DNA from: a virus
Virus record (IMG/VR): IMGVR_UViG_3300011113_000750
Span: 1 to 20,725 of that record
DNA: 20,725 bases
Reading direction: 5' to 3' (one strand)
Shown: positions 2,837-9,939 of the stretch, one piece after another
Layout: every line of letters starts with the position of its first letter
How positions within the stretch are numbered: the first letter of the stretch is position 1
Made by a program: the position numbers and the translations under genes
Notes under the pieces: model-generated
The model's database searches: none
What the model saw: the letters and a program-made list of their open reading frames with translations, nothing else
What the model was told of the DNA's origin: nothing

Positions 2837-2920
2837 ATGGGCGTCAAATGGATTCACAAAGATGGTTATTCAAGACCCGATAAGCGTACACTTCCTAAGA
2901 AAGGAGGAAAGAAAAAATGA
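2837..2920 (+). CDS. Tiny 27-aa basic peptide
   Basis: The frame MGVKWIHKDGYSRPDKRTL ends in a lysine-rich tail, PKKGGKKK. It has a well-placed GGAG (2827-2830) six bases before the ATG, and its TGA overlaps the next ATG (2917-2920). Its final codons also encode AAAGGAGG (2900-2907), a strong Shine-Dalgarno site for that next gene. It may be a nucleic-acid-binding peptide or mainly a coupling leader. It is short, so confidence is modest. Confidence 0.5.
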   Translation: MGVKWIHKDGYSRPDKRTLPKKGGKKK

Positions 2921-3216
2921 GCGAAAAATTTCCCCCATGGGATACAGATGAAAAACAATTTCCTTCATGGATTCAACAAGGAAAAAACCTAAAAAAATCC
3001 GCTGATGGTATAATCAGAGCAGTAGTAAGTAACAGAGAGACTCTTCTAGTTCCTGATCACATAAAGAATGAAAGATTGGAAATATGTTCAACTTGTGAAT
3101 GGATAAGTAAAAATAAATCCAGATGTAAATCTTGTGGATGTATTCTTAAGCTAAAAACATCTTTTGCAATTAATGCTTGTCCAGAAGGAAAATGGGGAGA
3201 GTGGGAAGATAAATAA
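2917..3216 (+). CDS. Cysteine-rich, zinc-binding-like protein, 99 aa
   Basis: The C-terminal half carries C57-x2-C60 (CSTC), C70-x2-C73-x-C75 (CKSCGC) and C88 in ACPEGKWGEW, a set that can bind one zinc ion. I recall the 'C..C...RCK.CGC.l..K....CP.gkW' pattern in cyanophage proteins of unknown function. The first half (KFPPWDTDEKQFPSW) is rich in aromatic residues and proline and may be flexible. The start is fixed by the strong AAAGGAGG at 2900-2907 and the ATGA overlap with the preceding peptide. This is the second putative zinc protein in a row, which suggests that the two work together, although that is inference. Confidence 0.7.
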   Translation: MSEKFPPWDTDEKQFPSWIQQGKNLKKSADGIIRAVVSNRETLLVPDHIKNERLEICSTCEWISKNKSRCKSCGCILKLKTSFAINACPEGKWGEWEDK

Positions 3217-4153: not shown

Positions 4154-4933
4154 ATGGCAAAAGGATTTACTGTTAAGGCTCCTGCTCCAAAGGTATCTGA
4201 ACCTGAGTGGGATTATGAAAAAATTAAAGAAAGAATGCGAGGTAAGTCAATCGTATTCTGTCTTCCAGGCCGTGGTTGTTCATATCAGTTTCTGAAGTCA
4301 TTCGTACAACTGTGCTTTGATATGGTACAGAATGGTATGAGTATTCAGATTTCTCAAGATTATTCTTCCATGGTAAACTTTGCACGTTGTAAGTGCTTAG
4401 GTGCAAATGTACTGCGTGGACCAAAGCAGATTCCCTGGGATGGTAAACTGCAATATGATTATCAACTGTGGATTGATAATGACATTGTGTTTAACACAGA
4501 AAAGTTCTGGCAACTCTGTGATTTGGCTCTGAGTGAAGACAGCGAAGGTAATCTCGTTGACAGAGAAATCACCGCTGGTTGGTATTGCACAGAAGATGGT
4601 CACACGACCTCAGTGGCTCACTGGTTGGAAGAAGATGACTTCCGTAAGAACGGTGGAGTTATGAATCATGAAACGTTGACCACCATGGAAAAGCGTCGTA
4701 AGCCTTTCACCGTAGACTACACTGGTTTTGGTTGGGTGATGATTAAGAACGGTGTTTTTGAGAACCTTGAGTACCCCTGGTTTGCTCCGAAGATGCAAGT
4801 ATTTGAATCTGGGAATGTTCAGGATATGTGTGGAGAAGACGTGTCATTCTGTCTCGATGCTAAAGAAAAAGGCTTTGAGATCTGGTGCGACCCTCGCATT
4901 CGTGTGGGGCATGAAAAGACTCGTGTAATCTGA
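4154..4933 (+). CDS. GT-A-type glycosyltransferase-like protein, 259 aa
   Basis: The protein has the layout of a compact GT-A glycosyltransferase. A beta strand (SIVFCLPGRG, residues 32-41) starts a nucleotide-binding half, YQLWIDNDIVF carries a DND triplet at 108-110 that corresponds to the metal-binding DxD, and GFGWVMIKNGVF (191-202) is followed by GEDVSFCLDAKEKGFEIW (227-244) and H253, as in family-2-like enzymes where a D/E acts as base. There is no membrane segment. It should move a sugar from a nucleotide donor; the acceptor is unknown. It has its own early promoter and richer G/C codons than both neighbours, which hints at separate origin. Its TGA overlaps the next ATG (TGATG). Confidence 0.75.
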   Translation: MAKGFTVKAPAPKVSEPEWDYEKIKERMRGKSIVFCLPGRGCSYQFLKSFVQLCFDMVQNGMSIQISQDYSSMVNFARCKCLGANVLRGPKQIPWDGKLQYDYQLWIDNDIVFNTEKFWQLCDLALSEDSEGNLVDREITAGWYCTEDGHTTSVAHWLEEDDFRKNGGVMNHETLTTMEKRRKPFTVDYTGFGWVMIKNGVFENLEYPWFAPKMQVFESGNVQDMCGEDVSFCLDAKEKGFEIWCDPRIRVGHEKTRVI

Positions 4934-5082
4934 TGTTGGATATCGTATACCGAGGGAGAGTCTTATACCGCAATCTCACACATGAAGAATGTGCTGAGAT
5001 TCTGGATGAACTCTCTCAGAAGTATTATGAGAATGAAGAGTTTGATGTAAATGAATTAGAATTAAGACCATGCAGTTTATAG
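4933..5082 (+). CDS. Small acidic protein between the two transferases, 49 aa
   Basis: The gene starts within the stop of the glycosyltransferase (TGATG) and ends 13 bases into the carbamoyltransferase gene. The product MLDIVYRGRVLYRNLTHEEC continues AEILDELSQKYYENEEFDVN and ends ELELRPCSL. I recall similar 'YRGxxxYRNLxxEExAEILxELxxK(Y/F)Y' proteins in cyanophages, with no known role. Its strand-strand-helix form and acidic tail suggest a small partner protein, and the overlaps on both sides make coupled expression likely. The overlap with both genes supports it as a real coding region. Confidence 0.65.
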   Translation: MLDIVYRGRVLYRNLTHEECAEILDELSQKYYENEEFDVNELELRPCSL

Positions 5083-6566
5083 GATTAAGATTATGTGCTC
5101 ATGATTCTAATATTTCATATTCAAATAATACACAAGTAAAATATTATAAATCCGAAAGAGATTTACAACAAAAACATCACGGATTCAAAGATCTTAATCA
5201 ATGGAAAAAAATCATTGATCAATGGAATATCAATCCTTCTGAAATTGATGCAATCGGTATTGTTATTGATTGTTTTGATTATCCACATTTAAAATGTGAT
5301 GAGTCAAAACTTTATGAAATCATTGATATTCCCCTATTCAAATTTATGGGGTTTGACTGTCCAATTTTTAGAATTGACCATCACTATGCTCACGCATTAA
5401 GTGGTTGGCCATTAGGAGTTGATTCTTCAATACAATTCGTATTTGATGGTTTTGGTGATGATAAAACTATACATTCTCTTTTTAGAAATAATCAAAGAAT
5501 TTTAAATTACAAATTAACTGATGGAGAATCTCTTGGAAGAATTTTGGGCACTGTTGGCAATATTCTAGGATTTAATGGATTAACAATAGATCATGCTGGA
5601 AAACTTATATCCTTAAATGGGTATGCCAATCCACAAACAAAAATTTCTTATGAATCGAATTCTTATTCTATTCTTTCTCTAAAGGAATTATGGAATTTTG
5701 AGCATATTAAATCAATTAAAAATAATCATCAAGAGTTATTTGATTATATTCGAGATTGTCACGAAGAAACTGAAAGAATATATGTAAAACATTTTGAAGA
5801 ATATTCAAATGAAAATGATACAATTTTTTATTCTGGAGGAATTGCTCAAAACATCGTTATTAATTCTAAAATTAAAGAAATAAGACCAAATTTACATATT
5901 CCTCCTCATTGTAATGATGAAGGATTATCTTTGGGAATAATTGAGTTTCTTCGTCAATACTATAACCAAAAATCTTTTGATACAACAGGATATCCTTATT
6001 GGCAATCTGATCAAGCACCAAAAACAAGACCATCAAAAGAAACGATCAAACAAACTGCAGAGCATTTAGCAAACGGTAAAATTGTTGGATGGTATCAAGG
6101 TTATGGTGAAGTTGGATCTAGAGCATTGGGAAATCGAAGCATTTTAATGAATCCTTCTGTAAAAAACGGAAAGGATATTCTCAATCAAAAAGTTAAACGT
6201 CGTGAGTGGTTTAGACCTTTCGGCGCTTCTATTCTTGAAGAAGAAACTCAAAATTACTTTGAATGGCAAGGTACTTCTCCATATATGTTATATACTATGA
6301 ATCTTTTAAACAAAGATTTATTCCCAGCTATTACTCATGTTGATGGCACTTGCAGAATACAAACTGTTTCTCAAGAATTGGAAGATTATTATTCTCTGAT
6401 TGAAGAATTTAAAAATATTACAGGAATTCCAATGTTATTGAATACTTCGTTAAATAATGGTGGAAAACCAATCTGTGCAACACCATACGAAGCATTTGAA
6501 CTTTTAACTTCAACAGATCTGGATATTCTAATTGTAGGGAATGCAGTTTACGAAAAAAATTACTAA
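5070..6566 (+). CDS. NodU/CmcH-family carbamoyltransferase, 498 aa
   Basis: This family joins a carbamoyl group, from carbamoyl phosphate through carbamoyl-adenylate, to a hydroxyl on a sugar or antibiotic. The N-terminal Kae1/ASKHA-like domain shows LRLCAHDSN (residues 7-14), metal-ligand histidines in IDHHYAHAL (102-110), FVFDGFGDD (123-131), YSGGIAQN (254-261) and PHCNDEGLSLG (279-289). The C-terminal domain has GEVGSRALGNRSIL (346-359), FRPFGASIL (381-389) and LLNTSLNNGGKPI (456-468). At 498 residues it is shorter than the usual 550-600, the shortfall lying in the middle. NodU-like enzymes occur in several T4-like cyanophages; the natural acceptor is unknown. It follows a glycosyltransferase, so a sugar acceptor is likely but unproved. 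Confidence 0.92.
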   Translation: MQFIGLRLCAHDSNISYSNNTQVKYYKSERDLQQKHHGFKDLNQWKKIIDQWNINPSEIDAIGIVIDCFDYPHLKCDESKLYEIIDIPLFKFMGFDCPIFRIDHHYAHALSGWPLGVDSSIQFVFDGFGDDKTIHSLFRNNQRILNYKLTDGESLGRILGTVGNILGFNGLTIDHAGKLISLNGYANPQTKISYESNSYSILSLKELWNFEHIKSIKNNHQELFDYIRDCHEETERIYVKHFEEYSNENDTIFYSGGIAQNIVINSKIKEIRPNLHIPPHCNDEGLSLGIIEFLRQYYNQKSFDTTGYPYWQSDQAPKTRPSKETIKQTAEHLANGKIVGWYQGYGEVGSRALGNRSILMNPSVKNGKDILNQKVKRREWFRPFGASILEEETQNYFEWQGTSPYMLYTMNLLNKDLFPAITHVDGTCRIQTVSQELEDYYSLIEEFKNITGIPMLLNTSLNNGGKPICATPYEAFELLTSTDLDILIVGNAVYEKNY

Positions 6567-6578
6567 TGAGAGACTATT

Positions 6579-6728
6579 ATGGCTAAACCAAAAGGTTCAA
6601 TGAATAAGGTCATGCATGTTCCTGGCTCACCGAAAAAAACTCGGCAAGGGCATAGCAAATTGACTCTAACTTCTGCTACTTCTCGTAATGGAAAAACAAA
6701 AAAATATAGAGGTCAAGGAAAAGGGTAA
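6579..6728 (+). CDS. Very basic 49-aa protein
   Basis: The sequence begins MAKPKGSMNKVMHVPGSPKK, continues TRQGHSKLTLTSATSRNGKT and ends KKYRGQGKG. It is rich in lysine, arginine and glycine, has no predicted fold and should bind nucleic acid or acidic partners. I recall a nearly invariant 'MAKPKGSxNK...PGSPKKTRQGxSxxTxxxATSRNxxKKxYRGQGK' protein in T4-like cyanophages, usually near tail or baseplate genes, of unknown role. It ends two bases before the next ATG. Synteny and conservation from memory support it. Confidence 0.75.
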   Translation: MAKPKGSMNKVMHVPGSPKKTRQGHSKLTLTSATSRNGKTKKYRGQGKG

Positions 6729-6730
6729 TC

Positions 6731-7405
6731 ATGTATATCTTTGAAGGTAATGATGAATGGAATCAGATACATTCTGAAGACCTTTGGATCTACAATAAAT
6801 TATGTTTAAGTCGGGTTTTGGGTTATACTTGTGGTCCTGTTGGGACTACAGTTCCCAAGCCTGACTTTTATATTGTCCGTCCTGTGATGAATTTACTCGG
6901 AATGGGACGTAAAGCTCGGATTGAATACATCTCAAAGTACACAGATCGATATCATCCTGCTGAATTCTGGTGCGAAATCTTTGAAGGAGATCATATCAGT
7001 GTCGATTTTCAACATCAAGAACCGAAATTGGTTGTTTTAGGCACTCGTGATGAAGAAGATCCTCTTTATCGATGGGAAAAATGGGAGAAAGTTGACTTAA
7101 AAGTTAAGTTTCCTCCAATTCTACACACTCTGAAGGGTGAATATGAGTGGATTAACTGTGAATTTATTGGTGGAAAACTAATCGAAGTGCATTTTCGTCA
7201 AAATCCAGACTTTCGATACGGGAATTCTGTTGCAATTCCAGTCTGGAATGACCAAAAAGTTGGGCATATAGATAATTTAGAGTTCGTGAATGACTCTGAC
7301 TACCTTCGAAAAGGTTTTTATATTGATTCTCGGGATAGCAACCCCGTAAAAAGTTCTGATTTTAACAAATCAGGAGCTAAAAACGATGGCAAATTCACCA
7401 GTTGA
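6731..7405 (+). CDS. Conserved cyanophage protein with ATP-grasp-like signatures, 224 aa
   Basis: Signatures that suit an ATP-grasp ligase appear in order: YIVRPVMNLLGMGRKA (47-62), like the lysine/arginine-P plus glycine-rich loop that grips ATP; WCEIFEGDHISVDF (80-93), like the 'EE(F/Y)ixG.e.svd' strand; and INCEFIGGKLIEVHFRQNPD (141-160), like the metal-binding 'E...iE.N.R' segment, with E144, E152 and R156 as candidate ligands. ATP-grasp enzymes join carboxylates to amines or thiols using ATP. At 224 residues it is short for the family, so it may be a trimmed or degenerate version. I remember the protein as conserved but unnamed in cyanophages near gp25. It lies directly after the carbamoyltransferase and the basic protein, and its end overlaps the next gene. 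Confidence 0.6.
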   Translation: MYIFEGNDEWNQIHSEDLWIYNKLCLSRVLGYTCGPVGTTVPKPDFYIVRPVMNLLGMGRKARIEYISKYTDRYHPAEFWCEIFEGDHISVDFQHQEPKLVVLGTRDEEDPLYRWEKWEKVDLKVKFPPILHTLKGEYEWINCEFIGGKLIEVHFRQNPDFRYGNSVAIPVWNDQKVGHIDNLEFVNDSDYLRKGFYIDSRDSNPVKSSDFNKSGAKNDGKFTS

Positions 7406-7623: not shown

Positions 7624-8025
7624 ATGCCTGTCGAAAGGGTAAGTAAAGGTTTTAAGGACATTAGTGCTTCCTTTCAGGTAAGTGCATTGAATTATGACCT
7701 AATTGCACTCAAAAATGAGAGTGCGATTGCCCGTTCAATTCGAAATTTGGTACTTACTCTTCCAGGAGAAAAGCCTTTTAATGAAGATTTGGGTTCTGGT
7801 GTCTCAAAATCAGTTTTTGAGAACATGGATAACATTTCTACAACAATTATAAAGGAAGAAATTGAAAATACAATTAATAATTTTGAACCAAGAGTCAGAT
7901 TAATTGATGTGAATGTAGAACCAAATTATGATGGCAACGATTTATACGTTACAATTCAATATGAAATCATTGGAATTGATGTTTTACCGCAGCAATTGGC
8001 ATTTGCATTACAACAGACACGATAA
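7624..8025 (+). CDS. 25: Baseplate wedge subunit gp25
   Basis: This is the small wedge protein of contractile tails (GPW/gp25 family), which in T4 joins gp6 and gp53 around the hub and helps start sheath assembly. The length of 133 residues matches T4 gp25 (132). Recognisable parts are ALKNESAIARSIRNLVLT (about 28-45), the PGEKPFNEDLGSGV loop (47-60) and the diagnostic NNFEPRVRLIDVNVEP (85-100), where the EPR at 88-90 is the most conserved motif of the family. The start lacks a Shine-Dalgarno site. The TAA touches the ATG of gp6 directly. It should be expressed late, from 7594. Confidence 0.93.
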   Translation: MPVERVSKGFKDISASFQVSALNYDLIALKNESAIARSIRNLVLTLPGEKPFNEDLGSGVSKSVFENMDNISTTIIKEEIENTINNFEPRVRLIDVNVEPNYDGNDLYVTIQYEIIGIDVLPQQLAFALQQTR

Positions 8026-9939
8026 ATGACACTAGTAAATTTTAGCAATCTCGATTTCGATCAAATTAAGAGTTCTCTCAAAGAATATCTGAGAGCAAAC
8101 TCGAATTTTACTGACTATGATTTCGAAGGTTCTAATTTATCAACGATTATTGATACTCTTGCATATAATACTTACATTACTTCATATAATGCTAACATGG
8201 TTAGCAATGAAGTTTTTATTGATTCTGCAACTTTAAGAGAAAATGTCGTTTCTCTCGCAAAAGCAATTGGGTACATCCCAAGATCAAAGAAGTCATCAAT
8301 CGCAACCGTTTCATTTTTTGTTGACACGTCTTCTTTAGCAATTGCGCCATTAACATTAACTCTTCAGAAAGGACTTGTTTGTACAAGTTCTACAACTTTT
8401 CAAGGACTAAGCTATAGTTTTAATATTATTGATTCTGTCACGAAACCAGTTATTGATAATATTGTAACATTTGACGCAATTCAGGTTTATGAAGGAACAC
8501 ATCTTACTCAAACATTTACTGTAGATACAAATAATTTAAATCAAAAATTCATACTATCAAATGCTGGTATTGACGTAAGTTCAATACGAGTTACAGTTAG
8601 AAATACTCAAAATAGTACTGTGACTCGTCAATTTAGTCTTTCTGAAAATTTGATTGATATTGGACCAACATCAAAAGTCTTCTTTATTCAAGAAATTGAA
8701 GATCAAAGATACGAACTTATTTTTGGTGATGGAATTTTTGGAGTAAAACTTGAGAATCTCAATTTTATTGAAGTTTCTTATGTTGTAAGTAATGGAGAAA
8801 ATGGAAATGGCATATCCAACTTCGTATATGCGGGAAGACTTTTAGACAATAATGACGTTCCGGTTGTAGAATCAATTTCAGAAATCACAACTGACATTTC
8901 ATCAAATAATGGTCAAGATTTGGAGTCTGTAGATTCTATTAAAAAATTTGCTCCAAGAATCTATGCTTCACAAAACAGAGCCGTAACCGCGGCTGATTAT
9001 GAAGCAATTGTTCCTACGATATTTCCAGAGACAGAATCCATCTCTGTATATGGTGGTGAAACATTAAATCCACCCAGATATGGAAAAGTATTCATTTCAA
9101 TCAAACCTTATAATGGAGACTTTTTATCAAGTATTATTAAGGATCAAATTAAAACACAATTAAGAAAATATACCGTCGCGGGAATTGTTACTGAGATTAT
9201 TGATCTCAAGTACATATTTGTCGAATATGAATCGACAGTTTATTACAATGCTAATTTATCTCCTGGCGCTGGAAATGTAAAGTCAATTGTTGAAACAAAT
9301 CTTTCAAGATATTCCGATTCAACAGAGCTGAATCGATATGGATCAAGATTCAAATATAGCAAATTCCAAAAAATAATAGACGATAGTCATCCATCAATTA
9401 CGTCAAACATTACAAAAATCACAATGCGCCGTGATTTAAGTGCAAAAGTAAATGTTCTTGCAGATTATGAATTGTGTTTTGGAAATCAATTTCATATTAA
9501 AAATTCAAGAACCGGATATAATATTAAATCCTCTGGATTTAACGTTGACGGAATTGTGGATCAAGTTTATTTTGGAGATTTACCGGGATCAAATGAAAAG
9601 ACTGGAAGCATATTCTTATTTAAATTAAATTCTCTTACAGAGCCAGTTATTGTTAGAAACAATGTTGGATCTATTGATTATGAAAGAGGTGAAATTAATT
9701 TATCTCCAATCAAAATTACAAACACGACAAAAACGAAAAATGGATTAAAGATTGTTGAAATTTCAGCAATTCCTAAATCAAATGATGTCATCGGAAAAGA
9801 AGATCTTTATTTGCAACTAGATATTAATAACAGTATCTTAAATATGCAAATAGATGATATTTCATCTGGTGCAAATATTTCGGGATCAACATATACTGTA
9901 ACATCCAGTTATACAAACGGTAGTTTAATCAGATCGTAA
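8026..9939 (+). CDS. 6: Baseplate wedge subunit gp6
   Basis: At 637 residues it is close to T4 gp6 (660). The N-terminal part, MTLVNFSNLDFDQIKSSLKE and then DTLAYNTYITSYNANMV with FIDSATLRENVVSLAKAIGY, is the gp6 signature that forms the helical inter-wedge contact. The middle carries the baseplate-J-like core: NRAVTAADYEAIVPTIFP (about residues 316-333) and PPRYGKVFISIKP (about 349-361). In T4, gp6 forms the ring that joins neighbouring wedges and changes shape on infection. It begins with no gap after gp25 and ends one base before the giant gene, so the three are probably one late transcript. Confidence 0.93.
   Translation: MTLVNFSNLDFDQIKSSLKEYLRANSNFTDYDFEGSNLSTIIDTLAYNTYITSYNANMVSNEVFIDSATLRENVVSLAKAIGYIPRSKKSSIATVSFFVDTSSLAIAPLTLTLQKGLVCTSSTTFQGLSYSFNIIDSVTKPVIDNIVTFDAIQVYEGTHLTQTFTVDTNNLNQKFILSNAGIDVSSIRVTVRNTQNSTVTRQFSLSENLIDIGPTSKVFFIQEIEDQRYELIFGDGIFGVKLENLNFIEVSYVVSNGENGNGISNFVYAGRLLDNNDVPVVESISEITTDISSNNGQDLESVDSIKKFAPRIYASQNRAVTAADYEAIVPTIFPETESISVYGGETLNPPRYGKVFISIKPYNGDFLSSIIKDQIKTQLRKYTVAGIVTEIIDLKYIFVEYESTVYYNANLSPGAGNVKSIVETNLSRYSDSTELNRYGSRFKYSKFQKIIDDSHPSITSNITKITMRRDLSAKVNVLADYELCFGNQFHIKNSRTGYNIKSSGFNVDGIVDQVYFGDLPGSNEKTGSIFLFKLNSLTEPVIVRNNVGSIDYERGEINLSPIKITNTTKTKNGLKIVEISAIPKSNDVIGKEDLYLQLDINNSILNMQIDDISSGANISGSTYTVTSSYTNGSLIRS

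Follow-up and report, generated by a model that had tools for sequence, protein, structure and literature searches.

The protein encoded by an open reading frame at 6731-7405 (+; ATG start, 224 amino acids) of a cyanophage sequence is predicted with high confidence to adopt the ATP-grasp fold, and is quite probably a minimal ATP-grasp enzyme with a single module of about 200 residues, the core making up the whole protein. The sequence analysed (hereafter the window, meaning the whole stretch of viral DNA) is 20,725 nucleotides long. Given the predicted fold, the product would probably be a small ATP-using enzyme that joins a carboxylate to another group. The superfamily and the enzyme class are well known, and the window protein would be a divergent, minimal and unannotated member. 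An unannotated family, found on several hundred cyanophage contigs of freshwater and marine origin, thereby gains a predicted fold, a probable chemistry and site residues that can be tested; if the protein is active, a protein- or peptide-modifying ligase would join the cyanophage gene set.

Protein family

The window protein matched phrog_3577 (E 1.4e-51, spanning residues 9-198), a family whose function is given as unknown in PHROGs and which numbers several hundred cyanophage loci. Its homologues in phage records (50 records, all from Synechococcus phages) are labelled 'hypothetical protein'. The window protein is thus a member of a family for which ATP-grasp annotation is absent from both PHROGs and the phage records, a case of probable superfamily membership missed by sequence profiles.

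Scans of viral contigs for the family gave 229, at least 582 and at least 494 confirmed stretches, in overlapping sets; with the BUCT-ZZ01 protein as sole query, such a scan gave no matches. Conservation was counted in 41-42 homologues, the diverse set being composed of 42 members that were 33-75% identical to the query. Homologues are typically 196-199 amino acids long, versus 224 for the window frame. The original prediction had treated 6731-7405 as one protein: this stands for residues 1-200 (6731..7330, +), the conserved core delimited by the AlphaFold2 model, the Foldseek PDB matches and the phrog_3577 match, but not for residues ~200-224, which lie outside the conserved protein.

Cellular relatives were sought by a peptide-pattern scan of GTDB species genomes and by profile in 291 cyanobacterial genomes, and none was found in either; because neither search had a positive control, restriction of the family to phages is provisional. 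A literature search, with subscription journals mostly outside its reach, found no description of the protein. In phage S-SRM01 (L082, 8001-8598), the homologue is split across two frames (tblastn recovered it in two pieces) and its N-terminus is missing from the annotated CDS; the cause is either a frameshift or a sequencing error.

Predicted structure

Two AlphaFold2 models were obtained from different alignments. The first, based on 41 rather similar sequences, had a mean pLDDT of 72, with a confident C-terminal lobe and residues 37-80 below pLDDT 50; all 50 PDB matches listed by Foldseek were ATP-grasp enzymes, RimK among them. The second, built for residues 1-200 (without the tail) from the diverse 42-sequence alignment, reached a mean pLDDT of 91.5 and a pTM of 0.86, and its best-ranked 50 PDB matches were all ATP-grasp proteins (probability 0.98-1.00). 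The top matches were PylC (4ffl, E 3.7e-6), 3df7 (E 1.2e-5) and PsnB (7dro, E 7.3e-5); further matches included ArgX (3vpb, E 1e-3), with the ArgX/LysX range at E 1e-3 to 1e-2, and D-Ala-D-Ala ligases, L-amino acid ligases, PurP, PurK and biotin-dependent carboxylases were found lower among the best-ranked 50. TM-scores against the full enzymes were moderate (0.34-0.56 by query length). In a viral structure library, another phage member of the family, uncharacterised and 52% identical, ranked first, and the named matches among the first 30 were nearly all ATP-grasp, D-Ala-D-Ala ligase or TupA-like.

The ATP-grasp reading of the original prediction was therefore upheld by the confident second model, by its uniformly ATP-grasp best-ranked matches and by the fitting motif order described below. 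A check for the outcome named as refuting it, a confident model without the ATP-grasp fold, gave the reverse in both models. Most, but not all, members of the ATP-grasp superfamily carry a pre-ATP-grasp domain at the N-terminus. In the second model this domain is absent, with ~20 residues ahead of K23.

Conserved residues of the putative ATP-grasp site

The three strings on which the prediction had been built, RPVMNLLGMG, CEIFEGDHISVD and CEFIGGKLIEVHFR (residues 143-156), are present as quoted within 6731-7405 (+). Conservation in the family is highest in these strings, which are its conserved heart and not chance strings: across the 42 homologues, the invariant residues include D17, W19, Y21, K23, P51, F79, W80, D92, N142, E144 and R156, and R50, N54, G57, G59, E82, G86, E152, H154, N158 and D160 are conserved in at least 90%.

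From their positions, K23, R50, GMG, E144, E152 and R156 may be read as an ATP-grasp site. K23 (6797..6799, +), in the motif WxY(N/D)K and invariant in 42/42 homologues, would be the linker lysine, that is, the candidate first ATP-phosphate-binding lysine ('DK' lysine). RPVMNLLGMG (residues 50-59; 6878..6907, +) would provide the second basic residue, R50 on strand 2, and the glycine-rich loop, GMG; position 50 is R in most members and K in the L156/L160 group. CEIFEGDHISVD (residues 81-92; 6971..7006, +) would form the hinge region and the first strand of the C-terminal lobe (88-94 in the second model), with the invariant D92. NCEFIGGKLIEVHFR (residues 142-156; 7154..7198, +) would form the metal-ligand strands (140-146 and 149-154 in the second model), with E144 as the fourth-strand acidic residue and E152-x-H154-x-R156 as the ExN strand; E144 and E152 are expected to be metal ligands.

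A cyanobacterial sequence (L335), presumably the large subunit of carbamoyl-phosphate synthetase, was aligned by eye with the window protein, its segments LVRPSYVIGGRGM, IDQYIEGKEVELD and MNIQFV..YVIEVNPR being set against IVRPVMNLLGMG, CEIFEGDHISVD and INCEFI..LIEVHFR of the window; RPVMNLLGMG resembles LVRPSYVIGGRGM, also by eye. The residue order DK - (K/R)P - GxG - ExxxG...D - N.E - ExHxR follows the published ATP-grasp template (PMC4431377), with two departures: the presence of histidine where ExN has asparagine, and the absence of the pre-ATP-grasp domain. At the ExN position, the glutamate is E152 in at least 90% of homologues and the asparagine is replaced by H154, or by Q in some members (e.g. 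L189, L207); occasional polar substitutions of this asparagine are known (PMC4431377).

Sequence-profile searches

The window protein had no significant match in Pfam or NCBIfam, and was matched neither by the RimK profile PF08443 nor by the R2K_3 profile. When all 42 members were searched against Pfam, the best result was ATP-grasp_3 for 1/42 members (E 0.043, not significant). The family profile had no significant match among PDB sequences; the PDB sequence matches that were seen (antitoxins, a kinetochore protein, a multicystatin) were short and were rejected, the relation being unconvincing. The profile-profile search proposed as a check in the original prediction, carried out as an HMM-HMM comparison against 30 cyanobacterial ATP-grasp_3 matches, was not significant. 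A regular-expression motif test matched family members alone and 0/30 known ATP-grasp proteins, and is uninformative on the superfamily because the known proteins were missed as well. The putative superfamily assignment thus rests on the predicted structure and on the order of the conserved residues.

Gene neighbourhood

The gene order glycosyltransferase - basic peptide - ATP-grasp - gp25 - gp6 is conserved on about 100 distinct contigs. Neighbours were counted over distinct loci, upstream in the 48 with more than 3 kb of upstream sequence and downstream in the 97 with enough sequence. Upstream, the constant neighbours are a glycosyltransferase-like protein of phrog_1574 (4154..4933, +; 47/48 loci) and a 49-aa basic peptide of phrog_516 (6579..6728, +; E 1.2e-14; 47/48 loci), the latter lying within 400 bp of the ATP-grasp gene in 100/102 loci. 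Downstream, they are the baseplate wedge proteins gp25 (7624..8025, +; PF04965, E 9.2e-16) and gp6 (8026..9939, +; phrog_219, E 1.8e-193), both at 96/97 loci.

Between phrog_516 and gp25, before the baseplate module, lies a slot with variable cargo. In other phages it holds a ferredoxin-family gene (S-SM2) or a 2OG-oxygenase (S-SCSM2R), or is empty (S-RIM8, S-SSM5), and phrog_516 was found in 417 phage records, most of which lack the ATP-grasp gene. In S-SRM01 (L082), an adenosylmethionine decarboxylase follows the ATP-grasp gene in this slot.

The phrog_516 peptide is highly basic (PKKTRQG...SATSRN..KKYRGQGKG) and is nearly always encoded directly upstream of the cargo slot or of gp25. The phrog_1574 protein is unusually conserved, being 74-87% identical across loci where gp6 is only about 45-66% identical. 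Elsewhere in the window, 2917-3216 encodes a zinc-ribbon-like protein (DUF6171, E 1.3e-7; also phrog_13558).

Proposed chemistry and alternative explanations

Carboxylate-amine ligation is the likeliest chemistry to be expected from the modelled fold. As we infer catalysis and the residue roles, ATP and Mg would be bound between the two lobes, with the phosphates contacted by K23, R50 and the GMG loop and the metals held by E144, E152 and H154; a carboxylate would then be activated as an acyl phosphate, which would be captured by an amine (or a hydroxyl) to give an amide-like bond.

PylC, PsnB, ArgX/LysX and Ddl are for the most part enzymes that ligate amino acids, or that modify peptides and small proteins such as carrier proteins. 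On the strength of these closest structural matches, and of the gene's place in the baseplate module, the reading slightly favoured over a free-metabolite ligase is that the enzyme joins amino acids or peptides and works on a protein or peptide of the phage or its host. PylC (4ffl/4ffm), the best structural match, shares the two-lobed ATP-grasp core at 14% identity, but has ~350 residues and an N-terminal pre-ATP-grasp domain, whereas the phage protein has ~200 residues and no such domain; nothing suggests that the latter uses lysine or ornithine. PsnB and the graspetide (omega-ester/amide peptide) ligases form the second structural group (best E 7e-5, 14-18% identity), and a further likeness is that a small peptide gene, phrog_516, adjoins the phage ATP-grasp gene. 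As a dedicated graspetide precursor the phrog_516 peptide was rejected, since it is alike and present in phages that lack the ATP-grasp gene. ArgX, LysX and RimK share the ATP-grasp core, but the phage protein has neither the RimK Pfam match nor the pre-ATP-grasp domain.

ATP-grasp proteins of the R2K clade (CDC123, DUF4343) occur in some phages (PMC4431377, PMC7824862) and resemble the window family in being divergent, phage-encoded and proposed to modify proteins. The R2K clade has no linker lysine, carries its second lysine in a loop that follows strand 2 and lacks the ssxGbGl glycine-rich loop (PMC4431377), whereas the window family keeps the invariant K23 and the GMG loop. It is conceivable, if doubtful, that the family forms a phage-only ATP-grasp class, with no pre-ATP-grasp domain and a histidine at the metal site, whose role, late in infection, is to add an amino acid or a peptide to a protein of the baseplate or the host.

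The main rival reading, though improbable, is an ATP-grasp pseudoenzyme, in which the fold would be kept for a structural or regulatory part (e.g. in baseplate assembly) and no ligation would take place. The constant position beside gp25 and gp6 would suit such a role, as would the change of the metal-site Asn to His, the missing pre-ATP-grasp domain and divergence of the sequence beyond Pfam recognition. A structural role, however, would not need the charged site residues, which show no variation (K23, E144 and R156) or almost none (R50, E152 and H154) across 42 diverse sequences; moreover, the gene is missing from most phrog_516-bearing cyanophage records (50 versus 417 records) and is therefore not a core structural part.

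An ATP-grasp-type phosphotransferase, or other non-ligase chemistry on the same fold, is very unlikely: every ATP-grasp protein has a kinase-like C-terminal lobe (PMC4431377), and the family departs from the usual ExN motif, but carboxylate-amine ligases dominate the best structural matches and kinases account for 0 of the best 50. That the protein is not ATP-grasp and that the motif likeness arose by chance is scarcely credible, for although the sequence profile comparisons were not significant, two AlphaFold2 models from different alignments both had exclusively ATP-grasp top matches.

An equally remote proposal, that the ATP-grasp protein and the neighbouring carbamoyltransferase are partners in one pathway, was rejected on the gene-neighbourhood count. 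The carbamoyltransferase is of the NodU/NolO type (5070..6566, +; PF16861 (Carbam_trans_N), E 3.2e-58; PF02543 (Carbam_trans_C), E 1.5e-9) and also matches phrog_1601 (E 8.5e-186). The original prediction had placed the ligase beside it, and in the window the two are indeed near neighbours, with one short peptide gene between them; phage S-T4, which infects Synechococcus WH7803, also has both genes, far apart. The functional pairing was not supported: a carbamoyltransferase was found near the ATP-grasp gene in 0/48 related loci whose upstream sequence exceeds 3 kb, and relatives of the carbamoyltransferase, found in 137 phage records, come, among the matches listed, mostly from phages without the ATP-grasp gene.

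C-terminal tail and nucleic-acid element

Residues 201-224 (7331..7402, +) are not conserved protein and are the in-frame read-through of a nucleic-acid element: they are encoded by NGGGATAGNAACCCCNTNAAAAGTTCT and the hairpin behind it, residues 205-224 were below pLDDT 50 in the first model, and most homologues end before the tail. The conserved element, NGGGATAGNAACCCCN'TNAAAAGTTCT (7331-7357, +; hairpin to about 7378), is followed by a CTGATTT/AAATCAG hairpin and then by GGAG, ahead of a short gene that precedes gp25.

The element was present as a single copy per contig in 251 loci, about a third of which had been gathered with the element's own pattern, which inflates its apparent constancy. 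The closing pair of the first stem was C-G in 120, A-T in 54, G-C in 4 and T-A in 2 of 183 distinct sequences; this covariation is independent of the collection pattern, because the pattern leaves those two bases free. The loop AAC is able to pair with a downstream GTT, in the geometry of an H-type pseudoknot.

The gp25 start lies 230-390 bases downstream of the element in 188/192 distinct loci with room for it, whereas the ATP-grasp gene is upstream of the element in only 96/176 loci; the element therefore belongs to the short pre-gp25 gene and not to the enzyme. An Rfam search with the element gave no family match, and it is possibly a new cis-regulatory RNA of cyanophages.
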